This document shows positions 2,133 to 37,959 of a DNA stretch of 40,921 bases, piece by piece. A model generated the notes under the pieces. That model was not told the origin of the DNA and searched no databases. It saw only the letters and a list, made by a program, of their open reading frames with translations. Positions within the stretch are counted from its first letter, which is position 1; each line of letters opens with the position of its first letter. The stretch is from Desulfobacterales bacterium (lineage in GTDB: Bacteria; Desulfobacterota; Desulfobacteria; Desulfobacterales; Desulfatibacillaceae). Location: contig JAGVAW010000345.1 in the NCBI GenBank assembly GCA_020060085.1, positions 1 to 40,921 of the forward strand. The letters are read 5' to 3'. The translations under genes were made by a program, and so were the position numbers.

Positions 2133-4469
2133 TCAGGCTCCCTTTGCCTTGCCCTCTTTTGCCAGGGCTGCGGCTACTGCAGCCTGTCCCAGGCTTATGC
2201 CTCCGTCCCCTGTTGGCACAAGCCTGTGGATGAGCACTTTTTCCATGCCGCCTTCCTTGAGAAGGCGGATCATCTGCCTTAAAAGCAGGGCATTCTGAAA
2301 GACCCCTCCGGAAAGGGCCGCTGTTTTAACGCCGGTTTTTTTGCTCCAATAAAGGCAGGATTGGGTAAAAACCCGTGCAACCGTGTTGTGAAACCGGGCA
2401 CTTATTATTGATGCCGGAACTTTGCTGTGGATGTCTGCCACAACAGCCCGGACAATTTGCCCGGCTGGAATTATCTTTGGCGAAGTATCTTTTGAAAGGA
2501 TTTCGTAGGTCTGCCTTTCCTTTTGATGGGCAATTGACTCCAGCAGCATGGCCGCATGGCCCTCGTGGGCCGATTCCAGGCAGATGCCACAAAGGGCTGC
2601 AACCGCATCAAACAGCCTGCCAAGGCTTGTTGTGACAGGGCTGTTTATGCCCCTTTTTATCATTTTGCACACAATATTTATATGCTCTTTAGGTATGGCG
2701 GCTAGGGCTGGCGCTTGGGGCGCATTTTCGCCAAAGGCATTTGCCAGGTGGCTTAAAGCCATGCGCCAGGGCTGGCGGGCAGCCGCATCGCCCCCAGGCA
2801 GGGCAACTGGCTCAAGGTGGGCCAGCCTTTTGCAGGAAATAAAATCCGCCAGAAGAGTCTCTCCACCCCACACGGTGTTGTCCGGCCCCAGCCCCGCGCC
2901 GTCTGCGCAAATGCCTATAACCGGGCCGCAAAAGCGGTTTTCCGCCATGCAGGAAGCAATGTGGGCATGGTGATGGCCTATGCGGAAAACAGGAAGGCCC
3001 CGCCCCCCTGCATATTCCAGGCCCGGATGCCCGGCAAGCAGGTCGCAGGCAGCAATTTCCGGCTGAATTTGGGTGATTTTTTCCAGATGAGCTATGACAT
3101 CAAGGAAAAACCGCCTGGACTCAAGGCTTTCAAGCCCTCCTATGTGCTGGCTCAAAAAGGCCTTGTCGCCATCTGCCAGGCAAACGGTGTTCTTAAGCCA
3201 TGCACCGCAGGCAAGCACAGGCAGAACCCTTTGCCTTAAAAAAACCGGGGCAGGCACAAAGCCCCTGCTGCGGCGCAAAAAAATGGGCCTGCGGCCTGAA
3301 GCCCTCATCACCGAATCATCGCAGGCAGCAACAATGGGCCTGTTGTGAACCAGAAAAAAATCCGCCACACCCGAAAGGCAGTCAAAGGCTTCCGTATTTT
3401 TTGTGCAGATGGGCTGGTTGCTTATGTTGCCGCTAGTCATAACAAGAGCGGAAAAATCTTTGACCAGAAGATGATGAAGCGGCGTGTATGCAAGCATTAC
3501 AGCCACATGGGAAAGCCCTGGGGCAACCTGCCCGGCCAGGGGCGAGCCTGCCCGCTTTTTGGCAAGAACCGCTGGCCGGGCCGGGCTTTTGAGCAGGGCA
3601 TCTTCTGTGACGGAAAAAAGAGCCACAGCCCTTGCAGCCTCCAGGTCCGCGCACATAACAGCAAAGGGCTTTGCGGGCCGGGCCTTTCTTTTTCGCAACA
3701 GCCCCACAGCCTGCGGGTTGGCGGCATCGCAGCAGAGATGAAAACCTCCCAGCCCCTTGATTGCAACAATGGCACCATTTTTTATGAGGCGGGCAGCCTC
3801 CCCCACAGGATCTTTTGTTTTCACCGCCTCCTTGTCGGCGGTAAAAAGGCTCACCATTGGCCCGCATTGGGGGCAGGCATTGGGCTGGGCATGAAAGCGC
3901 CGGTCATTGGGGTTGCAATATTCCGCCAGGCATTCCGGGCACATGGCAAAGCCCTGCATGGAGGTGGCGGCCCTGTCGTAAGGAAGGCCAAGGGCAATGG
4001 TAAAGCGCGGCCCGCACTGGGTGCAGTTGGTAAAGGGATAGCCAAAGCGCCGGTCGTCAGAATCGCAGACCTGGGCAAGGCAGAAATCGCAAACCGCCAC
4101 ATCCGGGGGCAGGCCTGTCCGGGCAGGGCTGGGCGCAAGACTTGGCTTAACGGAAAAGCTTGAAAGGCCTGACAAGGGGATTTTTTTTGTTTTTATCCGC
4201 TCAATGCGGGCAAGGGGCGGGGCCTCGGCCTTTACGCGCCTTACAAAGGCTTTCAGGCAATCTTTATGGCCCTGGGCCTCTATCCTGACACCTAGGGAGG
4301 TGTTCGCCACCTGTCCGCAAAGGCCCATTTCCTTTGCAAGGCGATATACAAAGGGCCTAAAGCCAACACCCTGCACAGTGCCGCTTACGGTTATGACAAG
4401 GGCCTGGCGATTCTTGTCCGGGTTTTTGCAGGAATTGGCGCCAAAAAGGTTTTTGCTCCTGTTGCTCAT
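2133..4469 (-). CDS. hypF: Carbamoyltransferase HypF
   Basis: Makes the thiocarboxamide on HypE from carbamoyl phosphate and ATP, the source of the cyanide ligands of the [NiFe] centre. All domains are present in its 778 residues. An acylphosphatase domain (VSGTVQGVGFRPFVYRLA) comes first. Two zinc fingers follow (CDFC...CTQC and CPEC...CPQC, roughly residues 125-205). Next is a YrdC-like domain (IKNGAIVAIKGLGGFHL), then a Kae1-like domain with HHHAHIASCMAEN and LSGGVFQNALL. It is the last gene of the hydrogenase operon. Its ATG overlaps the hypC stop by 4 bp (ATGA), so the two are probably translationally coupled. Confidence 0.97.
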   Translation of the reverse strand: MSNRSKNLFGANSCKNPDKNRQALVITVSGTVQGVGFRPFVYRLAKEMGLCGQVANTSLGVRIEAQGHKDCLKAFVRRVKAEAPPLARIERIKTKKIPLSGLSSFSVKPSLAPSPARTGLPPDVAVCDFCLAQVCDSDDRRFGYPFTNCTQCGPRFTIALGLPYDRAATSMQGFAMCPECLAEYCNPNDRRFHAQPNACPQCGPMVSLFTADKEAVKTKDPVGEAARLIKNGAIVAIKGLGGFHLCCDAANPQAVGLLRKRKARPAKPFAVMCADLEAARAVALFSVTEDALLKSPARPAVLAKKRAGSPLAGQVAPGLSHVAVMLAYTPLHHLLVKDFSALVMTSGNISNQPICTKNTEAFDCLSGVADFFLVHNRPIVAACDDSVMRASGRRPIFLRRSRGFVPAPVFLRQRVLPVLACGAWLKNTVCLADGDKAFLSQHIGGLESLESRRFFLDVIAHLEKITQIQPEIAACDLLAGHPGLEYAGGRGLPVFRIGHHHAHIASCMAENRFCGPVIGICADGAGLGPDNTVWGGETLLADFISCKRLAHLEPVALPGGDAAARQPWRMALSHLANAFGENAPQAPALAAIPKEHINIVCKMIKRGINSPVTTSLGRLFDAVAALCGICLESAHEGHAAMLLESIAHQKERQTYEILSKDTSPKIIPAGQIVRAVVADIHSKVPASIISARFHNTVARVFTQSCLYWSKKTGVKTAALSGGVFQNALLLRQMIRLLKEGGMEKVLIHRLVPTGDGGISLGQAAVAAALAKEGKAKGA

Positions 4470-4723
4470 GAATTTTCTTGGAAGGGAGCGTTTTCAGGGT
4501 CATCGTCCATACCTGCCAGGGCTTTGAGAATCTCAAGGGCCTCTTGCGCCCTGGCCGGGTCCATCTTGTGAATGCCAAAACCTGCATGAACAATTATGTA
4601 ATCACCCACAGCAGGCTCTTCAATTAAGGAAAGGTTTACGGGCAGCATCACTCCCCCGCCAGCATCCACCACACCTTGCTGGCCGTTTATTGATTCAATT
4701 CTTGCAGGCACGGCAATGCACAT
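4466..4723 (-). CDS. hypC: Hydrogenase assembly chaperone HypC
   Basis: Small chaperone of 85 residues that carries the Fe(CN)2CO unit with HypD and delivers it to the hydrogenase large-subunit precursor. The protein begins MCIAVPARIES. The invariant Cys2 that binds HypD and the precursor is therefore present once Met1 is removed. The family pattern GDYIIVHAGFGIHKMD follows at about residues 40-55. It lies 2 bp downstream of the maturation-protease gene and overlaps hypF by 4 bp. Because it sits in the structural operon, it is probably dedicated to the MvhA-type large subunit encoded two genes upstream. Confidence 0.96.
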   Translation of the reverse strand: MCIAVPARIESINGQQGVVDAGGGVMLPVNLSLIEEPAVGDYIIVHAGFGIHKMDPARAQEALEILKALAGMDDDPENAPFQENS

Positions 4724-4725
4724 AT

Positions 4726-5214
4726 TTATTGGCCTTTCCTGTCAGCGGCCGCCAGAAATGCCCGGATGTCATGGGCAACCGCCTCCACAAGACCAGGAAA
4801 AAGCCCGGCCAGAGCAGGGGTAAGCTCTTTGCCAAAGGCTATTTCGCAGCCTGCTGTTATGCCATAAATCCGGGCAAGTTGCGGCATCTCCTGCCCAAAA
4901 AGGCTGCGGCCAAGCTCAAGAACCGAAATCAGATCCAGGCCGTGGGAGGATGCTGTGTGGCGGCCCGCCTCCCAGGGGGAAACCAGGCGCAGCTCCCCAA
5001 TGCTGCTGCCTTCATCCAAAAGGGCGTCCACCACAAACAAAAGGGAGTATCCACGGGCCTTTTCCAGTATTTCCAGGTTTGCAAAGGCGCTTTTTTCCGT
5101 GTCCAGCCCGTCAATTCGGCCCTTTAAGGCCTCTGCAATGCGCAGGCCCACCCCGTCATCAGACAAAATGGGGCTGCCAAGCCCCAGCAGCAGGGCGTGG
5201 GACTTCTTTTTCAC
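4726..5214 (-). CDS. Hydrogenase maturation endopeptidase (peptidase M52)
   Basis: Nickel-dependent protease that trims the C-terminal tail of the [NiFe] large subunit after metal insertion. It has 162 residues, typical of the HyaD/HycI/HoxM family. The N-terminal motif reads GLGSPILSDDGVGLRIAEAL, where most members have GIGN in place of GLGS. The later acidic position (FVVDALLDEG) and the histidine (ASSHGLDLISVLELG) that help bind nickel are present. It starts with GTG at 5214, overlapping the mvhA stop codon as GTGA, so translation is coupled to its substrate's gene. The substrate is inferred to be the adjacent MvhA-like protein, which keeps a 25-residue tail after the DPCxxCxTH motif. Confidence 0.93.
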   Translation of the reverse strand: MKKKSHALLLGLGSPILSDDGVGLRIAEALKGRIDGLDTEKSAFANLEILEKARGYSLLFVVDALLDEGSSIGELRLVSPWEAGRHTASSHGLDLISVLELGRSLFGQEMPQLARIYGITAGCEIAFGKELTPALAGLFPGLVEAVAHDIRAFLAAADRKGQ

Positions 5215-6671
5215 GACGAGACCTCATCCAGCAGGCAGCCATTTTTGTCCCTTATGACGATTTTGATGGGAATGCGGCCCGGCAGGCTGTGGGTGGCACA
5301 GGCCAGGCAGGGGTCGTAGGCCCGAAAGGCCATTTCCACCTCGTTAAGCAGGCTTGGGCTTGCCTTGCCGTTTTTTATGCGGCTTTGGGCTGCATTTTTA
5401 ACGGAAAGGCATATGGGGCCTGCATTGTGCTGGGTGGCCACAACCAGGTTAACCTTGGTTAAAATGCCATTTTCATCAGTTTCGTAGTGGTGGAAAAGGG
5501 TACCCCGCGGGGCTTCCACACAGCCTATGCCCTTTTGCACAAGTTGCAGATTCATGTTGCGGATGTCCCGGCTTGTAAGCTCATCCGCGTTTGCGATGGC
5601 GCAGTTTCTTTCCGCAGCCATAAGCGCGCAGATGAGCCTTGCCCAGTGGAAGGCAAGGGTATGGCCCGAAGGCCTGCCCCCCAGAAACTCGAACATTTTG
5701 TCGCGTTCTGCCTGGGCAAGGGGGGTGGCCATACCGCCTGCAACATTCAACCGGGCCAGGGGGCCAACCCGATAAAGGCTTGTTCCCTGGCCGGGGGTAA
5801 GGCCCTTCCAGCCCCTTTCCTTTAAAAAGGGCAGCTTCACAAAGGTCCACGGCTCCACATGCTCGGCAATAAAGCTGGCGTAATCCTTGGGATCAAAAAG
5901 GGCCAGGCGGCTTCCATCCACATCGCAAACAGCCACCTTGCCATCATAAAAGGCCACCTTGTCATTTTCATCCACAAGGGCCATGGAGCAGAGATCCAAC
6001 TGATAGGCCGGGCTGTGTAACATTTCCCCAAAGTGCTTGTCGTTTAAAATCAAATCCTTGAAAAGGGTTAGGGCATACCGGGCGAAATCCAGGGTCTGAT
6101 CTGCCGTCTTGCGGATAATGTCGCGCTCTTCAGGGCGGATGGCGCGAGGCACGCCGCCGGGAAGCCCGCCTTCGGGGTGAGGGGCCTTGCCGAAAACAAG
6201 TCGGATGATGTCCCGGTTTTTCTTGCGGATGTCTATGACCTTTTCGCCAATTTCCCTGCCCAGCTTGCCCACCACGCCAACAATGTTGCGCAGGGCCGGG
6301 TCAATGTCTTGCCCCAGCAGAAGATCCGGGGCTGCCAGAAAGAAAAAGTGGACATAATGATCCTCAATGAAGAAGGCGTTGTATTCCAGCTCGCGGATGA
6401 GGCGCGCTGGCAGGGGCGGCTCAACAGACCACAGGGCATCTAATGCCTTGGTGGCGGCCATGTGGTGGGCCGAAGGGCATACTCCGCAGATATTGGGCGC
6501 AATGCGGGTCATTTCCTCTGCAGGCCGGCCAAGGCAGAAAACCTCAAAGCCCCTCAACTCCGTGACCTGCCAGTAGGCATCTTCCACATTCCCGCTGTCA
6601 TCAAGGAATATCTCTATCTTGCCGTGGCCTTCAAGCCTTGTGATGGGGTTGATGGTTATGCGGCTGCTCAT
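5211..6671 (-). CDS. mvhA: [NiFe] hydrogenase large subunit, MvhA-like (group 3)
   Basis: Catalytic subunit holding the NiFe active site. It has 486 residues. The N-terminal cysteine pair is in ICGVCPSAHH (Cys62, Cys65) and the C-terminal pair in DPCLACATH (Cys455, Cys458). All four nickel ligands are cysteines, with no selenocysteine codon. The 25 residues after His461 are the expected propeptide for the adjacent protease. The protein lacks any Tat signal or membrane anchor, and its neighbours mvhG and mvhD indicate a cytoplasmic F420-non-reducing (group 3c-type) enzyme. ATGA overlap with mvhG upstream and GTGA overlap with the protease downstream show tight coupling. Confidence 0.95.
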   Translation of the reverse strand: MSSRITINPITRLEGHGKIEIFLDDSGNVEDAYWQVTELRGFEVFCLGRPAEEMTRIAPNICGVCPSAHHMAATKALDALWSVEPPLPARLIRELEYNAFFIEDHYVHFFFLAAPDLLLGQDIDPALRNIVGVVGKLGREIGEKVIDIRKKNRDIIRLVFGKAPHPEGGLPGGVPRAIRPEERDIIRKTADQTLDFARYALTLFKDLILNDKHFGEMLHSPAYQLDLCSMALVDENDKVAFYDGKVAVCDVDGSRLALFDPKDYASFIAEHVEPWTFVKLPFLKERGWKGLTPGQGTSLYRVGPLARLNVAGGMATPLAQAERDKMFEFLGGRPSGHTLAFHWARLICALMAAERNCAIANADELTSRDIRNMNLQLVQKGIGCVEAPRGTLFHHYETDENGILTKVNLVVATQHNAGPICLSVKNAAQSRIKNGKASPSLLNEVEMAFRAYDPCLACATHSLPGRIPIKIVIRDKNGCLLDEVSS

Positions 6672-7663
6672 GGGCGCTCCTTGTCAAGGGGGTGCATTTT
6701 CAATGCAGCCTTGCCCAGTATGGATACGGGCTGGGTGAAACGGTAAAAAAGGCCTGCCGGGTCAGGAATTGTTTCCACAAGCTGGGCCAGATCAAAATAC
6801 TGCTCTGTTCTTAAAATGGATGCCAGGGCGGACAGATGTTTTGTTCCTGCGTCCTCCACACCTGCAACCGGGCCGAAGCAGCCCCGGCATGGCATATTGT
6901 TGCGTATGCAGGTTTCTCCGCAGCCGCTTCGGGTGGCAGGCCCCATGCACAGAATGCCTTCCTCCAGAAAACAGTAATCCGGGTCTGTTTCAATGGTATG
7001 AATCTGCCTTATCTGATGGATTTCCAGGCGCGCGGGCTTTTTGCGGTTACGCGGGCACACATCGCACAAGGCCCGGCGGGGGGCAAGGGCAGAGCCTTTG
7101 GGCGGCAGGTCCCCTGCAAGCACGGCATTTATGGCCTGGCTTATGAGGTGGGGTGGAGGCGGGCAGCCGGGCAGAAAATAATCCACATCTATGACCTGCT
7201 TTATGGCCCGCACCTTTTCGTGGAAGGCCGGAAGGGTAAGTTCGTGGCCGTTGACAAGGCTTTTTTCCTGGGGAATGGTTCCCTCCGGGTTTTCGACAGT
7301 CGGCGCATCCCTGTAAACAAAATCCAGTATTTCCTGACGGCCAACAAAATTTGCAAGGCCCGGCGTGCCGCCAAAGCAGGCACAGGCACCAAGGGCAAGC
7401 ACAAGCCCTGCCTTTTGCCGCAGCAGCCGGGCAATTTCCAGGTGCTCGTCATTGCGCACGCAGCCGCTTATTATGGCAAGGGCCAGGCTGCAATCGGAAA
7501 GAGCCTGAACATCCTGGTACTTGTAATCCAGGGCAACAGGCCAAAGGACAATGTCCAGCTTGTCGGCCACATCCAGAAGCCCAGCGTCCAGATCCACCAC
7601 TGCCATATCGCAGCCGCCGCAGGCTCCAAGCCATGTTATGGCGACTTTTGGTTTTTGTGCCAT
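6668..7663 (-). CDS. mvhG: [NiFe] hydrogenase small subunit, MvhG-like
   Basis: Electron-transfer subunit that carries three Fe-S clusters from the NiFe site toward MvhD. It has 331 residues and begins MAQKPKVAITWLGACGGCDMAV, so it has no Tat leader, consistent with a cytoplasmic enzyme. Proximal cluster ligands are Cys15, Cys18, a cysteine in LGACACFGG (94/96) and Cys166 in GCPPPP. The distal and medial cluster cysteines are at 199 and 202 (CDVC), then 230, 238, 247, 251, 258 and 261. Its ATG is 31 bp downstream of the mvhD stop, and its stop overlaps the mvhA start. Confidence 0.95.
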   Translation of the reverse strand: MAQKPKVAITWLGACGGCDMAVVDLDAGLLDVADKLDIVLWPVALDYKYQDVQALSDCSLALAIISGCVRNDEHLEIARLLRQKAGLVLALGACACFGGTPGLANFVGRQEILDFVYRDAPTVENPEGTIPQEKSLVNGHELTLPAFHEKVRAIKQVIDVDYFLPGCPPPPHLISQAINAVLAGDLPPKGSALAPRRALCDVCPRNRKKPARLEIHQIRQIHTIETDPDYCFLEEGILCMGPATRSGCGETCIRNNMPCRGCFGPVAGVEDAGTKHLSALASILRTEQYFDLAQLVETIPDPAGLFYRFTQPVSILGKAALKMHPLDKERP

Positions 7664-7694
7664 GCGCTGACCTCCTGCAAGCTTCCTTTAGGTT

Positions 7695-8147
7695 TCAGGC
7701 CCTTGCCGGAAAAGAATCCCTGCCCGATTCCCCGCCTGCCGCAAGGCTGTCGGCAAAAAGCCGGGCCGGGCCTAAAGGCGCAATCTGGGATGCCATGTCT
7801 CGCACAAGGGCCGGAATTTTTTCTCCGTCAGGATTCATGGCCGCAATCACGCGCAGGCGTCTGGAATCCAGGCCCCAGGCAGGCAGGATGCGCTGGAGCA
7901 GAAAGACCTTGGCCTCTGTCTTGAAATTGCCGTCCTGAAGGTGGCAGTCTCCCTCCGGGCAGACAAGAATAAGAATTCCATCCGCCCCCTTTGCAAAGGC
8001 TTCAAGAATGTGAGTTGCGTCTATTTTGCCGGAGCAGGCCACAGGCACCCAGTGATCCACGCCCTTTAGGCTCTCCTTGTGCGGGTCCAGGTAGCCCCAG
8101 CCAAACTTGCAGGAAAAGCAGACTATGCGCGGGTTGTAATCCTTCAC
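7695..8147 (-). CDS. mvhD: MvhD-like [2Fe-2S] electron-transfer subunit
   Basis: In methanogens MvhD passes electrons from the Mvh hydrogenase to the flavoprotein HdrA. Here 150 residues give the whole conserved domain. The five cysteines are Cys10 and Cys13 (CFSC), Cys38 (VACSGKID), Cys63 and Cys68 (VCPEGDCHL), and the GDCH motif typical of the family is intact. The segment ILEAFAKGADGILILVC matches the family core. The gene is 9 bp downstream of the flavoprotein gene, so in this operon the acceptor of MvhD is most likely that flavoprotein and not HdrA. That partner assignment is inference from context. Confidence 0.93.
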   Translation of the reverse strand: MKDYNPRIVCFSCKFGWGYLDPHKESLKGVDHWVPVACSGKIDATHILEAFAKGADGILILVCPEGDCHLQDGNFKTEAKVFLLQRILPAWGLDSRRLRVIAAMNPDGEKIPALVRDMASQIAPLGPARLFADSLAAGGESGRDSFPARA

Positions 8148-8156
8148 CTTGCCTCC

Positions 8157-9995
8157 TTATTCCTTGTGCGTGTTGCCGGACATTTCCTTTTCCGGCAAGG
8201 AGCTTTCCAGGCCCGCCAGAACCCCGGCCAGGTTGCGGGCAAAGGGATCATCCTGCATGTAGCGGGCAGCAGATGGGCAGGCGACCACGCACATTGAGCA
8301 GGATTTGCAGCGAAGCTCCTCTGTGACGGAGCGCTTGCCCCCGTCAACCTCCCTCAGGGAGCATGCATCAAAATAACAGGCACTTACGCACAATCCGCAG
8401 CCGGAGCAGCGGTCCAGAATGACCCTCACCGGGCTTAAGCCCTCCTGAATGCCCACGGAAACACAGGCCATGCAGGATATGCAGGGGCCACAAGAAAGGC
8501 AGCGCCTTGCCTCCTCCACAGCTTCCGGCAGGGTGAAGCCCCGCTCAAAGACCTGGAAGTGCATCCGCTTTTCTGGCGGAATCCACAACACTTCCGGCTC
8601 GGACTCGTAAAAGCGCCGCCTGGGAATGTCCTGGGGAGCAAAATGCTTGCGCCGCCCCTTGGCAAGGTCCAGGCCCCGCAGGTAGCGCTCAATGGATTCC
8701 GCTGCAACTGTTCCGTCCTGCATGGCATTCACCATGAAGCTGGGGGCTTTGAGGTCTCCGCCCACAAAGACCCAGGGCTTTTTCTTGCTCTGAAGGGTTA
8801 GGGAATCCAGGGGAATTCTGCCCCGCTCGTCCACAAGGTTTTCCCGGCGCAGGAAAGACTCCTCCGGGCCCTGGCCCACGGTGATGATTAGCACATCCGC
8901 ATCAAGGCGCAAATTGTCTTCCATGTTGAATTCCGGGTTAAAGCCGCATTCGTTGAAAACACTTGTGCAGGCAGGGCACTCTATGCCAGCAAGGCGCTCG
9001 GCTTTGCCAAGAATCCGGCTCACGCCCCGGCTGTAAAGTATGCGGATGCCTTCCTCCCAGGCTCCTCGCACCTCTTCGGGGTCTGCCTGTATGCTGTCTC
9101 TGTGCTCCCTTTCAAGCCGCTCAAGGCATACCAGGGTGGTATCCCCGGCAAGCCTCCTGGCCGTGCGGGCAACATCAAAGGCCACATTGCCACCGCCTAT
9201 GACCACCACCTTCTTGCCCCTAAAGTAATTGGGTGCAATGTTGCCGTGGGAGACCTCGTACAAAAAGGTGTGGCCGTACATGACCCCTGAATAGTCCTGG
9301 CCGTCAAGCTCCTTTCCCCCAAAGGTGAGGGTTCTTGGGGCGGGCGCGCCCTCGGCAACAAAAACAGCGGCAAAGCCCTGATTTCTCAAGGCCTCCAGGG
9401 TAAGCTCGCCCTCTCCCACGCGGGAATGAAAGCGCACATCTATTCCGGCTATCCTCACCAGGTTTTCAAGGCTTGCGGAAAGCACCTTTTCCGGCAGCCG
9501 GTAGCGGGGAATGAGCCACAGGGCACCGCCAAGCCGCCCGGAAGCCTCGAAAACCGTTACAGGATAGCCCCGCCGGGAAAGCTCGTACCCACAGGAGAGG
9601 CCTGCCGGACCGCCTCCCACTATGGCCACCGGCTCCCGGTTTCTTTTGTGCTCCCAGGCAGGCTTCTTGTCCATGTAATAGGTGTAGGTGTCCGAAATAA
9701 AACGCTTTAAAAGCCTGCGGCGGATTGCCCCGCCCTTATCGTGGTAATTGCACAGAAGCTCGCACAGGCCGCAGACAAAGCCGCACACGGTGAAAAAGGG
9801 GTTTTTCTCGTAAAGGTAATCGCCTATCTGGATTATGCCTTCATGGGCAAGGTGCGGGTCTTCCGGCAAAAGGCTTATAAGAACATTGGTGCGCTGAATG
9901 TCCTCGTTTATGGGGCAACCCATCTGGCATGGCGGCACGAACTGGCGCACCGCAGGCTCAACCGCTGCTTTGGAATCCCTTGTGCTGGTCCACAT
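8157..9995 (-). CDS. GltD/NfnB-like FAD oxidoreductase with C-terminal ferredoxin domains
   Basis: A 612-residue iron-sulfur flavoprotein. The N-terminus has GltD-type cluster cysteines (Cys23, Cys27, then CGFVCGLCELLC at 71-82). A first Rossmann fold for FAD follows (VAIVGGGPAGLSCGYELSRRG, GGGPAG at 127-132), then a second for NAD(P)H (VVVIGGGNVAFDVARTA, 265-279). The C-terminus has a run of five cysteines (499-511) and two classic [4Fe-4S] motifs (530-540 and 563-573). ATG 9995 has GTGAGG five bases upstream. It is the first gene of the hydrogenase operon and takes the place that hdrA has in Mvh-Hdr operons. It probably connects hydrogenase electrons, through MvhD, to NAD(P) and possibly ferredoxin. 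The substrate is not determinable from sequence alone. Confidence 0.85.
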   Translation of the reverse strand: MWTSTRDSKAAVEPAVRQFVPPCQMGCPINEDIQRTNVLISLLPEDPHLAHEGIIQIGDYLYEKNPFFTVCGFVCGLCELLCNYHDKGGAIRRRLLKRFISDTYTYYMDKKPAWEHKRNREPVAIVGGGPAGLSCGYELSRRGYPVTVFEASGRLGGALWLIPRYRLPEKVLSASLENLVRIAGIDVRFHSRVGEGELTLEALRNQGFAAVFVAEGAPAPRTLTFGGKELDGQDYSGVMYGHTFLYEVSHGNIAPNYFRGKKVVVIGGGNVAFDVARTARRLAGDTTLVCLERLEREHRDSIQADPEEVRGAWEEGIRILYSRGVSRILGKAERLAGIECPACTSVFNECGFNPEFNMEDNLRLDADVLIITVGQGPEESFLRRENLVDERGRIPLDSLTLQSKKKPWVFVGGDLKAPSFMVNAMQDGTVAAESIERYLRGLDLAKGRRKHFAPQDIPRRRFYESEPEVLWIPPEKRMHFQVFERGFTLPEAVEEARRCLSCGPCISCMACVSVGIQEGLSPVRVILDRCSGCGLCVSACYFDACSLREVDGGKRSVTEELRCKSCSMCVVACPSAARYMQDDPFARNLAGVLAGLESSLPEKEMSGNTHKE

Positions 9996-10309: not shown

Positions 10310-10819
10310 ATGGAATCTGCCCAAAGAAATGTGGTGCTTGTACATCCGCAAATCCACTGGAACACGGGCAACATAGGCCGGACCTGCCTTGCTGTGGGGG
10401 CAGCCCTGCATCTTATAAAGCCGCTGGGCTTTTCCCTGGAAAGCTCCCAGGTTAAAAGGGCCGGGCTGGACTACTGGCACAATGTGGATGTTGCCCTGTG
10501 GGAGAATTTTGAAACCCTTGTGCGCGCCAGAAATATTGATGAGAGCCAGATCTGCCTTTTCACAAAAAACGGTGGCCTCCCCCATTGGGAAATACCCCAG
10601 GCAAAAAGGCTTTTTCTTGTCTTTGGCTCGGAAACAGGAGGCCTGCCAGAGCAAATTCTGGAAAAGTACCCAAAAAGAACCTTTTACATTCCCATGTCCG
10701 GCGCGGTGAGAAGCCTAAACCTTTCAACCGCTGCGGCCATAGGCCTTTACGAGAGCCTGCGGGGCCTTGTGAAGGGTCGGGGAATAAGCACCCCGCAAAG
10801 CCAGGAAGCACAAAAATGA
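10310..10819 (+). CDS. trmL: tRNA (cytidine(34)-2'-O)-methyltransferase TrmL
   Basis: SPOUT-fold methyltransferase that 2'-O-methylates the wobble base of leucine tRNAs. The 169-residue product starts MESAQRNVVLVHPQIHWNTGNIGRTC, the usual TrmL N-terminus. The trefoil-knot motifs are present: LVFGSETGGLP and the C-terminal IPMSGAVRSLNLSTAAAIGLYESLR. ATG 10310 was chosen because family similarity begins there and AAAGGTG lies just upstream at 10300-10306. The frame is open to 10202, but that extra part is not TrmL-like. The stop overlaps the next gene's ATG by 4 bp. Confidence 0.94.
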   Translation: MESAQRNVVLVHPQIHWNTGNIGRTCLAVGAALHLIKPLGFSLESSQVKRAGLDYWHNVDVALWENFETLVRARNIDESQICLFTKNGGLPHWEIPQAKRLFLVFGSETGGLPEQILEKYPKRTFYIPMSGAVRSLNLSTAAAIGLYESLRGLVKGRGISTPQSQEAQK

Positions 10820-12393
10820 ATTTTTCACCCATTAATCCGGTGGGCTGGGTAAGGCAAATAAGCCTGCCCAGGCCCGGAATCGGCGATAACACGGCAGATG
10901 CAGAGCGCTTATGCCAGGCCCTTGGTCGCGAGCTGGGCAACAGGCAGGTTAGGATTGATTGGCGGCTTTTGCCAGAGCTGCCCCAGATGCTGCGCCAGGG
11001 AGATTTTTGTGTCAAAGCGACTGTTTTTCCGGGCCGGGAAGGCCTTGTTGTCATAGGTCTGGCCCCTGCAAACAGCCACTCCTTGCCCATACTGGGCCTT
11101 GCGGTTGACATAGGCACAACAAGGGTGGCCATCCGCCTTGTTGATATGGAAACAGGCCAAAACCTGGGGGAAACTTCCTTTGACAACCCCCAGGTGGCCG
11201 TTGGCCCGGACATTCTTTCGCGCATACATTTTGCCCACTCGCCGGAGGGGGCATCCGAGCTTGCAGGGCAAATCCGCAGCGCCATAGGCCGCGAGAGCCA
11301 GGCTCTGGCCCAAAGGGCAGGCTTTGATGCCACGCGCATTCTGGCTGCGTCCGTGGCCGGAAACACGGCCATGAGCCATCTTTTTTTGGGGCTGCCCACA
11401 GCAAACATGATTCGAGAGCCCTACATCCCTGTCATCAACCATCCCGGCTCGTGGGAGGCCCACGCCCTTGATCTGCCCTTTGCGCCCCTTGCAAGGGTCT
11501 TTGTCTTTCCCAACATAGGCAGCTACTTTGGCGGGGATTTGGTGGCAGGGATAATGCAGACAGGCATGGACCAAAAACAGGAAGTGACCATGCTTGTGGA
11601 TGTCGGCACAAACGCGGAGGTGGTTGTGGGCAACCGGGACTGGCTCATGGCCTGTGCCGGCGCGGCAGGCCCGGCACTTGAAGGGGGCATGAGCCGCATA
11701 GGAATGACAGCCGCACCAGGAGCCATTGACAGGGTGAGCATAGACCCAAAAACCCGCTCCATTGCCTGGCACACCATTGAGAACAAGCCCCCTGTGGGTA
11801 TATGCGGCTCCGGGGTTATAGATCTGGCTGCCGGGCTTTTTCTGGCGGGCATGATGGACATAAGGGGAAAGCTTGTCCCAGAAGCCTGCTCTGGTCGCCT
11901 GCTGGAAAAGGATGGCCTGCTTTCCCTTGTGGTGGTTGAAAAAGCGCTTTCCGGCACAGGGGAAAACCTCTGCCTGGATCAGACAGACCTGGATTCGCTC
12001 ACCCGCTCCAAGGCCGCCATGTACACGATTTTGAGAACCCTAACCCTTTCTGTGGGTGTTGAAATGCAAAATCTGGCCGCCTTTTTTGTGGCCGGGACAT
12101 TTGGCTCCTACATTGACCCGGAATCCGCTGTCACAATTGGAATGCTGCCGGATCTGGACAGGAGCATCTTTTCCGGGGTGGGCAACACAAGCCTGGAGGG
12201 GGCCGCCCTTCTGCTTGCCCAGGCCGGGTCCGATGAAAAGGCCCGTAAAATTGCCGGGCGCATAACCTATCTTGAGCTTAATGTTAACCAGGAGTTCATG
12301 AACCGCTTTTCTGCGGCAAAGTTTTACCCGCACACGGATATTGCCCGTTTTCCCAGCGTGGCAAAAAAGCTTGGGGCTGCCCCTGCTGCCTGA
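10816..12393 (+). CDS. ASKHA-domain protein (DUF4445/RACo-like) lacking the N-terminal ferredoxin domain
   Basis: Members related to RACo use ATP and a [2Fe-2S] domain to reduce inactive Co(II) corrinoid proteins. The 525 residues here begin with what looks like the middle linker domain. They then contain the actin-like ATPase core: LAVDIGTTRVAIRLVD (95-110), SVAGNTAMSHLFLGL, LVDVGTNAEVVVG, AGAAGPALEGGM, GICGSGVIDLAA and AGTFGSYIDPES. Only Cys33 and Cys65 occur before the ATPase core, so the [2Fe-2S] ligands of RACo are absent. The ATG overlaps the trmL stop (ATGA). No corrinoid methyltransferase gene is nearby, so the client protein is unknown. Confidence 0.82.
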   Translation: MNFSPINPVGWVRQISLPRPGIGDNTADAERLCQALGRELGNRQVRIDWRLLPELPQMLRQGDFCVKATVFPGREGLVVIGLAPANSHSLPILGLAVDIGTTRVAIRLVDMETGQNLGETSFDNPQVAVGPDILSRIHFAHSPEGASELAGQIRSAIGRESQALAQRAGFDATRILAASVAGNTAMSHLFLGLPTANMIREPYIPVINHPGSWEAHALDLPFAPLARVFVFPNIGSYFGGDLVAGIMQTGMDQKQEVTMLVDVGTNAEVVVGNRDWLMACAGAAGPALEGGMSRIGMTAAPGAIDRVSIDPKTRSIAWHTIENKPPVGICGSGVIDLAAGLFLAGMMDIRGKLVPEACSGRLLEKDGLLSLVVVEKALSGTGENLCLDQTDLDSLTRSKAAMYTILRTLTLSVGVEMQNLAAFFVAGTFGSYIDPESAVTIGMLPDLDRSIFSGVGNTSLEGAALLLAQAGSDEKARKIAGRITYLELNVNQEFMNRFSAAKFYPHTDIARFPSVAKKLGAAPAA

Positions 12394-29914: not shown

Positions 29915-31024
29915 TTGAATTCAAATGAGCGGAATGAATCCTTGACTATAAACTCTGCGCCATATTTCGATGCCGTAACCGCCACTAGGTTATTAGAAAA
30001 AATCCACCGGGCCGTAACAGGGTCCCTGCGGTTTATGGAAGTTTGCGGCACCCATACAACGGCCATTTTCAGGCACGGAATTAAGAGCCTTTTGCCAAAA
30101 GAGATAGAACTGGTTTCTGGGCCTGGCTGTCCTGTTTGCGTAACAAGCCAGGGGGATATGGATGCCTTTATAGATCTTTGTGCAAAGCCAGAGCTTGTAA
30201 GCGTTGTATTCGGGGACATGGTGAGGGTGCCTGGATCCAAATCCAGCCTTGCGGCGGAACGGGCCAGGGGGGCGGATATCCGGGTTGTTTATTCACCCCT
30301 TGATGCTGTTGAATTGGCTATTCGCAATCCTCAAAAAGAGGTGGTTTTTTTTGGAGTTGGCTTTGAAACCACCGGGCCGACAGTGGCAGTAGCTGTGATG
30401 GAAGCCAATAGACGCAAGCTTAAAAACTTCTTTGTTTATTGTGCGCTTAAACGCATACCTCCGGCTCTTAATGCTCTGTTTTCGGAAAGTAAAAGCGCCT
30501 TAAACGGCCTTTTATGCCCCGGCCATGTTTCCACAGTAACCGGGCTTGCGGCATATGCGCCAATTGCCATACGCTTTGGGCTTCCCTGCGTTGTGGCTGG
30601 ATTTATGCCTGTGGATATTCTCCAGGCAATACTCATGCTTGTTACCCAGACCCAACAAGGCATGGCAACAGTGGAAAATGCCTATGGACGGTCAGTTTCG
30701 ACTCAAGGCAATGCTCTTGCGCGCAAGGCTATTGAAACCGTGTTTGACACCTGTGACGCCCAATGGCGGGGACTTGGGATTGTGCCGGACAGCGGCTTTT
30801 GTTTTAAAAAAGAGTTTGCTCTTTTTGATGCAACAGAGCGTTTTGGACTTGTCCCAAAGCAAGGCCAAGAGCCCAAAGGCTGCTGTTGTGCTGATGTCCT
30901 GAGGGGGCTGGTGATGCCCTACTCTTGCCCTTTGTATAAAAAGGTCTGCACACCCCAAAACCCTGTGGGGCCTTGCATGGTTTCTGGTGAAGGGGCCTGT
31001 GCTGCACATTTCAAATATTCATAA
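29915..31024 (+). CDS. hypD: Hydrogenase maturation factor HypD
   Basis: Iron-sulfur scaffold on which, with HypC, the Fe(CN)2CO group is built. It has 369 residues, the normal length. Conserved motifs are MEVCGTHTTAIFRHGI, LVSGPGCPVCVTSQGDMD, VFFGVGFETTGPTVA and a C-terminal cysteine group for the [4Fe-4S] cluster (CCCADVLRGLVMPYSCPLYKKVC...GPCMVSGEGACAAHFKY). No in-frame ATG exists near the start. TTG 29915 or TTG 29942 are the candidates, both with weak ribosome-binding sites. hypE follows 77 bp downstream. The matching hypC and hypF genes are about 25 kb away in the hydrogenase operon. Confidence 0.95.
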   Translation: MNSNERNESLTINSAPYFDAVTATRLLEKIHRAVTGSLRFMEVCGTHTTAIFRHGIKSLLPKEIELVSGPGCPVCVTSQGDMDAFIDLCAKPELVSVVFGDMVRVPGSKSSLAAERARGADIRVVYSPLDAVELAIRNPQKEVVFFGVGFETTGPTVAVAVMEANRRKLKNFFVYCALKRIPPALNALFSESKSALNGLLCPGHVSTVTGLAAYAPIAIRFGLPCVVAGFMPVDILQAILMLVTQTQQGMATVENAYGRSVSTQGNALARKAIETVFDTCDAQWRGLGIVPDSGFCFKKEFALFDATERFGLVPKQGQEPKGCCCADVLRGLVMPYSCPLYKKVCTPQNPVGPCMVSGEGACAAHFKYS

Positions 31025-31101
31025 AAAGGTTTTGGGACAAACCGCCAATATTGTCGCATCTGGTCTTTGGGTTTTAAAAATGTGCCAGGAAAGCAAAATT
31101 C

Positions 31102-32109
31102 ATGAGTAAACAACTTGTAATGCTTGAACACGGGAGTGGCGGCAGGGCAAGCGCTAATCTCATTGAACAGCTTATTTTGCCTGCTTTTTCAAATCGCTAT
31201 CTTGCACCGCTTGCAGATGGTGCAATTCTTGATCCAATCCCCGGCAGAATTGCTGTTTCAACAGATAGCTTTGTTGTAGATCCAATATTTTTTAACGGAG
31301 GCGATATAGGAAGCCTTGCAGTTAACGGAACAGTAAATGACATTGCCATGTGCGGTGCCACGCCAAAATATTTAAGCGCGGCGTTTGTTCTGGAAGAAGG
31401 TTTTCCCTTGGCCGATCTGAAGAAGATTCTTTCTTCAATGAAAAAGGCGGCCAAAAGAGCCGGAGTTCTAATTGTAAGCGGCGACACAAAAGTTGTGCCA
31501 AAAGGAAAGGCCGACAAGATTTTTATCAACACAACAGGGGTGGGAAGCGTACCTTTCGGTCTTGATGTTGGCCCCCATGCAATATGCGAAGGGGATGCTA
31601 TTTTGCTTTCAGGATTCATGGGGGATCACGGCCTTTCAATTATGATGCTTCGGGAAGACCTTGGTTTTTTTGCAGAAATTCAAAGCGATACAGCCCCGCT
31701 AAATGGGCTGGTTTGTGATTGCCTGGCTGCCTGCCATGTGCATGCGCTGCGGGACCCGACCCGTGGCGGAGTTGGGGGCGCCCTATGGGAAATTGCAAGG
31801 GCGAGCGGTTTTGGCATAAGCATTCAGGAGTCAGGCTTGCCTGTAAGGCCACAGGTTGAATCCGCCTGTCAGCTTCTTGGGCTTGACCCCTTGTATGTTG
31901 CCAATGAAGGCTGCTTATTGGCCTTTGTGCCGGAAGGAGAAGCAAAAACGGCTTTAAAGATCATGCAAAACAACCCTTTTGGTAAAAACGCTGCCATAAT
32001 AGGCAGGGTTACAAAAGAAAATAAGGGGCAGGTTTTTTTGGAAACAAGGGCCGGAGGAACAAGAATCATAAATCCCCTTGCAGGAGAGCTTTTGCCCAGG
32101 ATCTGCTAA
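31102..32109 (+). CDS. hypE: Hydrogenase maturation factor HypE
   Basis: ATP-dependent dehydratase that turns the carbamoyl group received from HypF into a thiocyanate on its C-terminal cysteine, the source of the CN ligands. It has 335 residues in the PurM-like fold: MLEHGSGGRASANLIEQL, DSFVVDPIFFNGGDIGSLAVNGTVNDIAMCGATP, LIVSGDTKVV and DPTRGGVGGALWEIA. The protein ends PRIC, with the essential terminal cysteine present. A very strong terminator follows directly. Together with hypD it forms a two-gene unit; hypA and hypB are not in the window. Confidence 0.97.
   Translation: MSKQLVMLEHGSGGRASANLIEQLILPAFSNRYLAPLADGAILDPIPGRIAVSTDSFVVDPIFFNGGDIGSLAVNGTVNDIAMCGATPKYLSAAFVLEEGFPLADLKKILSSMKKAAKRAGVLIVSGDTKVVPKGKADKIFINTTGVGSVPFGLDVGPHAICEGDAILLSGFMGDHGLSIMMLREDLGFFAEIQSDTAPLNGLVCDCLAACHVHALRDPTRGGVGGALWEIARASGFGISIQESGLPVRPQVESACQLLGLDPLYVANEGCLLAFVPEGEAKTALKIMQNNPFGKNAAIIGRVTKENKGQVFLETRAGGTRIINPLAGELLPRIC

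Positions 32110-34653: not shown

Positions 34654-37955
<3,302 letters not shown>

Positions 37956-37959
<4 letters not shown>

Follow-up and report, generated by a model that had tools for sequence, protein, structure and literature searches.

A group 3c-type [NiFe] hydrogenase operon with a GltD-family flavoprotein in place of HdrA, a predicted soluble H2:NAD+ oxidoreductase

Relation to described systems

Group 3c [NiFe] hydrogenases are commonly annotated as electron-bifurcating partners of HdrABC. The operon described here resembles the MvhADG–HdrABC system in MvhA, MvhG and MvhD, the last of which serves as adaptor to an FAD protein whose ferredoxin tail carries two clusters. In contrast to that system, however, a GltD-family protein replaces HdrA, HdrBC is missing and the N-terminus of MvhD is altered. 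A GltD-type NAD(P) domain is likewise linked to MvhD in HdrL-MvhD of Desulfobacterium autotrophicum (PMC2702500) and in type III HdrA with a GltD insert, which in Bathyarchaeota is linked to mvhADG (PMC12054007). Both of these keep the HdrA body, whereas here the likeness to HdrA is confined to the ferredoxin tail.

The FAD/NAD(P) body and the cluster domain are shared with StnC, NfnB and DsrL. StnC, like our flavoprotein, has a lysine at the FAD-proximal cluster position and a C-terminal RCLxC piece, and DsrL also ends in a ferredoxin domain. The differences are that the partner here is a [NiFe] hydrogenase, reached via MvhD, that YRR is missing and that the tail is HdrA-like. No NfnA-like gene is present in the operon and (C/A)LE stands for YRR, which separates the protein from NfnB; the architecture is like that of DsrL, but the operon lacks dsrAB. 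The same overall reaction as predicted here, H2 with NAD(P), is found in group 3b and 3d [NiFe] hydrogenases (sulfhydrogenase, Hox), where the module is FNR-like or NuoEF-like. MvhA and MvhG of our operon, in contrast, score best with the VhuA and VhuG models, albeit below the equivalog cut-offs. In the open literature, mostly without subscription papers, no account of an MvhADG set with HdrA replaced outright came up, and an earlier one is possible. Judged by sequence, the system is most likely a variant of group 3c hydrogenase that acts as a soluble H2:NAD+ oxidoreductase.

The operon and its flavoprotein

The window, i.e. the whole stretch of 40,921 nucleotides that was analysed, corresponds to contig C144; the assembly has 3.36 Mb and is 91.7% complete. 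Between 9995 and 2133, seven genes follow one another in the same orientation on the minus strand, and all of them are backed by Pfam and/or NCBIfam matches. Since the successive gaps are only 9, 31, -4, -4, 2 and -4 bp, the run probably forms a single operon. Its first gene (8157..9995, minus strand) encodes a GltD-family FAD/NAD(P) iron-sulfur flavoprotein of 612 aa (Pyr_redox_2, Fer4_20, Fer4_7). It is followed on the same strand by mvhD (7695..8147, GTG start; FlpD/MvhD 88.9 bits, with matches to solved MvhD chains) for the [2Fe-2S] adaptor subunit, by mvhG (6668..7663; VhuG family 196.7 bits) for the hydrogenase small subunit with 12 conserved cysteines, which matches solved MvhG 5odc_E over its full length (E 5e-67), and by mvhA (5211..6671; VhuA family 370.6 bits) for the [NiFe] large subunit. 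MvhG and MvhA retain the cluster and Ni motifs, in MvhA C62/C65 (ICGVC) and an intact C-terminal DPCLACATH (5289-5315, minus strand), and the three subunits with these motifs place the enzyme in group 3c (Mvh/Vhu).

The remaining genes, also on the minus strand, encode a hydrogenase maturation protease (4726..5214; TIGR00072 above cut-off), the maturation chaperone HypC (4466..4723; PF01455, and TIGR00074 above cut-off) and the carbamoyltransferase HypF (2133..4469; TIGR00143 771.7 bits, above cut-off). Thus, the chaperone, protease and HypF genes named in the original prediction are confirmed by family models. The prediction had placed the operon at 4466–9995; all genes of this span lie where it put them, but the operon extends past 4466, because hypF lies at 2133–4469.

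Further genes of the contig may be mentioned here. HypD-like and HypE-like maturation proteins are apparently encoded at 29915-32109 on the plus strand, about 20 kb from the operon. A protein resembling the corrinoid activators RACo/AcsV, with the linker, middle and C-terminal domains of RACo, is encoded near the operon on the opposite strand (10585-12393, plus), and its gene adjoins the hydrogenase operon in the related loci L049 and L050, too. At 34654-37959 on the minus strand a protein of 1101 aa resembles an IcmF-type fusion of a B12-dependent acyl-CoA mutase and its GTPase chaperone, and a putative TetR-like regulator precedes this gene.

In the flavoprotein, an FAD-NAD(P) body of the GltD/NfnB/StnC type precedes the two-cluster ferredoxin tail. 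With a Fer4_20 cluster domain and a two-Rossmann FAD/NAD(P) body the protein belongs to the GltD/NfnB/StnC superfamily, and the body matches NfnA (9n5u), StnC, NfnI, dihydropyrimidine dehydrogenase and GltD. It stays below every NCBIfam cut-off, the best match being subfamily PRK12771 with 322.8 bits against a cut-off of 516. The N-terminal GltD-type cysteines C23, C27, C71, C75, C78 and C82 (9750..9929, minus strand; Fer4_20) are invariant in 16/16 aligned members and are presumably cluster ligands by homology to NfnB and StnC. Also invariant in all 16 is C343 of a PxC motif in the NAD-binding domain (8967-8969, minus strand). An AlphaFold2 model, computed from an alignment of the window protein and that of L049 only, had a mean pLDDT of 32.7 and supports no structural claim. 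Viral contigs held no close relatives of the flavoprotein and 17 distant ones, none extending past residue 448; on plasmids only remote GltD-like proteins were found, all below 60% identity.

The five-cysteine motif C499/C502/C505/C508/C511 (8463..8501, minus strand) had been regarded as an extra motif. The cysteines are real and invariant in 16/16 members, but part of the motif is probably no extra cluster site, as RCLSC appears to be the relocated first GltD motif. Residues 473-508 align with residues 13-50 of the solved GltD-type chain 4ylf_B (i-Evalue 0.0039), in which RCLxC of the aligned piece provides the first two distal-cluster ligands. The equivalent distal-cluster ligands of NfnB are Cys39 and Cys42 (PMC7596348). 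This type of piece is missing at the N-terminus of our protein and is placed after the body, as in StnC. We infer from this sequence comparison that the distal GltD cluster obtains its remaining ligands from C499 and C502. The other three cysteines, C505, C508 and C511, may bind an additional cluster, perhaps together with C71.

The tail (residues 524-582; 8250..8426, minus strand) with two [4Fe-4S] motifs has as its best solved match, if searched alone, the C-terminal domain of HdrA (9sfi_A, E 5.7e-12). In methanogen HdrA the C-terminal ferredoxin domain faces the MvhD side. Consequently, the tail is predicted by analogy to be the natural contact for MvhD. An identity of the 612-aa protein with HdrA or HdrL, including type III, was considered and rejected: the HdrA model matches residues 524-581 only, and the thioredoxin-reductase-type FAD body of HdrA is absent. 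On the whole contig this model matches only the tail and MvhD, and the HdrB model matches nowhere. Hence, as originally claimed, there is no hdrA, hdrB or hdrC in the window, and the HdrA partner encoded with a typical group 3c hydrogenase is lacking there.

Conservation and ancestry

Two sets of genomes, 395 from the phylum and 389 from the class, were searched with the flavoprotein alignment. With a threshold of at least 610 bits, orthologs were found in 24 genomes from 13 families; four of the 24 had first surfaced among 77 relatives searched with MvhA. Six genomes (L115-L120) with matches of 410-430 bits were left out, being paralogs of 32-36% identity without mvhD beside them. The original prediction had called for a search for the same five-gene order in other genomes; mvhD, mvhG and mvhA accompany the flavoprotein gene in all 21 loci complete enough to judge (window, L050, L051, L052, L103-L113, L148-L151, L154, L155). 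Contig ends truncate the other three loci, which leaves mvhA and mvhD visible in L153, mvhD in L114 and none of them in L152. In a Desulfatibacillaceae MAG (L049) this operon recurs with a flavoprotein of 94% identity.

In L109-L113, flavoprotein and MvhD form one reading frame of 724-733 aa with the tail fused directly to MvhD. These fusions in five genomes are strong evidence that the two proteins work together. The gene order in L154 is mvhG-mvhA-FAD-protease-mvhD, and L153 is consistent with it as far as it is readable. Thus, the gene set is retained despite rearrangement and fusion. L153 and L154 represent a more distant, possibly intermediate flavoprotein group (49% identical) with the protease gene before mvhD and an MvhD nearer to the canonical form.

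MvhD itself has diverged. Its N-terminal motif VCFSCKFGWG (8094..8123, minus strand) is lineage-specific: the 15 aligned GltD-linked MvhDs have a common VCFxCxFGWGY-type N-terminus followed by a deletion of four to five residues, and of the canonical FxCxWC pair only the first cysteine is left. The four common cysteines of canonical MvhD are kept in all 15; the additional C10 is missing in L108, which has Val instead. FxCxWC is kept in the MvhD of L114 and L153, and L154 is intermediate. HdrA-linked MvhDs and the copies on contig C90 of the same genome have the canonical N-terminus.

In a maximum-likelihood tree of 32 large subunits, 15/15 GltD-linked MvhA fall into one group with support of 100/100. 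Their neighbors are partnered by HdrA-MvhD fusions (L053, L054), HdrA (L055) and HdrABC (L056), of which L053-L055 stem from the same family as the genome of the window. Since all GltD-linked MvhA form one group beside HdrA-linked ones, HdrA and the GltD-type protein were probably exchanged a single time, in a direction that the tree does not root. The predicted combination of an Mvh hydrogenase with a GltD/NfnB-like flavoprotein is therefore well supported by the 21 complete loci, the five fusions and the separate clade. The wording "in place of HdrABC", however, is better replaced by "in place of HdrA", because among the closest hydrogenases HdrA is the common partner, and HdrBC may or may not be present.

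Electron path and alternative readings

As the product of the operon we propose a soluble H2:NAD+ oxidoreductase of four subunits that is reversible and does not bifurcate, a reading of the sequence that we hold to be probable, though by no means assured. MvhA would split H2 at its Ni-Fe site, and the clusters of MvhG would pass the electrons to the [2Fe-2S] center of MvhD. From there they would enter the HdrA-like tail of the flavoprotein and travel via the GltD-type clusters to the single FAD, where NAD+ would be reduced. At low H2 the reaction could run in reverse, from NADH to H2. A split into high- and low-potential branches would not be needed.

The acceptor is suggested by the NAD(P)-binding Rossmann segment, residues 263-292 (9120..9209, minus strand), which ends in E292, CLE replacing YRR. 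In the solved GltD-type NADPH enzymes that were matched, YRR ends the second strand of the NAD(P) fold. All 16 members carry (C/A)LE at this position, and E292 is invariant (16/16), so that at the level of this motif the protein is of the NAD-specific GltD type. DsrL-2, which has YRR, is strictly NADP(H)-dependent, while DsrL-1B uses NAD(H) only and DsrL-1A strongly prefers it (PMC7596348). Because YRR of the NADPH enzymes is replaced by an invariant acidic motif, NAD+ is probably the acceptor. The original proposal of NAD(P), possibly with ferredoxin, can thus be narrowed to NAD(H), probably without bifurcation.

A linear electron chain is the simplest reading, because no NfnA-, HydB- or HdrB-like subunit is encoded in the operon, nor is a second flavoprotein found among its genes. 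In addition, K97 (lysine in 15/16 members) corresponds in the alignment to StnC K170, which ligates the FAD-adjacent cluster, and the FAD of StnC was concluded to be non-bifurcating (PMC10482914). An electron-bifurcating H2:NAD+/ferredoxin oxidoreductase, working with a single FAD or with HydABC-like cluster gating, would give the extra invariant cysteines C505/C508/C511 a role in a low-potential branch. It would also agree with the conserved R166, which corresponds to NfnB R201, a residue that supports bifurcation in NfnB, and with a descent of the family from HdrA-linked hydrogenases of the bifurcating type. StnC, however, has the matching arginine as well as the Lys-ligated cluster position. 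Together with the missing partner subunits, this makes bifurcation unlikely. If anything less likely is its most specific form, an HdrA-free, single-flavin [NiFe] hydrogenase whose GltD-type FAD, with a rebuilt cluster chain, would bifurcate electrons from H2 to NAD+ and ferredoxin.

Alternatively, MvhD of the operon might serve HdrABC sets encoded elsewhere, the flavoprotein being a side entry or a separate enzyme. The genome does encode HdrL/HdrA-type proteins and, on contig C90, an HdrA-HdrC-HdrB run, and PF00374 detected no [NiFe] large subunit in this genome other than MvhA of the operon. Moreover, hdrC-hdrB-hdrA adjoin the operon in one of the 21 complete loci, that of genome G459, without an mvhD of their own in the stretch read. 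A wider complex including HdrCBA is for this reason possible in G459; an hdrB-like gene is also present in the truncated locus L114. The Hdr-type genes elsewhere in our genome, however, have MvhD copies beside them (ten FlpD-type places in total, including that of the operon). Furthermore, the diverged MvhD N-terminus is common only to GltD-linked MvhDs, and the direct fusions in five genomes tie MvhD to the flavoprotein. We therefore regard service to remote Hdr sets as improbable.

Three further observations are added. In L150/L156 (G459), L149 and L148 the GltD-hydrogenase operon is directly followed on its downstream side by genes of a complex-I-like membrane module (Proton_antipo_M); L156 contributes a 49-kDa-like subunit, and in G459 hdrC-hdrB-hdrA lie between operon and module. 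On contigs C116, C273, C339 and C170 of the genome of the window (G000), several MvhD- or HdrA-type frames contain one in-frame TGA, which suggests selenocysteine, as reported for Desulfobacterium autotrophicum. An RnfC-type match is present on contig C137 of this genome.

That the same architecture uses NADP(H) is very improbable: the GxGxxA motif of the NAD(P) fold, tied to NADP by the rule used in PMC12054007, speaks weakly against NAD(H), and most of the solved structures matched in the GltD family belong to NADPH enzymes, but the basic YRR residues have given way to an acidic residue in all 16 aligned proteins and the DsrL kinetics link YRR to NADP(H).

If the proposed non-bifurcating H2:NAD+ oxidoreductase is correct, the label of an HdrABC-bifurcating enzyme would be wrong for the group 3c hydrogenases of some anaerobes, and a further [NiFe] hydrogenase route to NAD+ would exist. 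MvhD would then be an adaptor for flavin enzymes that are not related to each other. Since HdrA-type and GltD-type sister operons occur within one bacterial family, the contribution of the FAD partner to the hydrogenase becomes directly testable.
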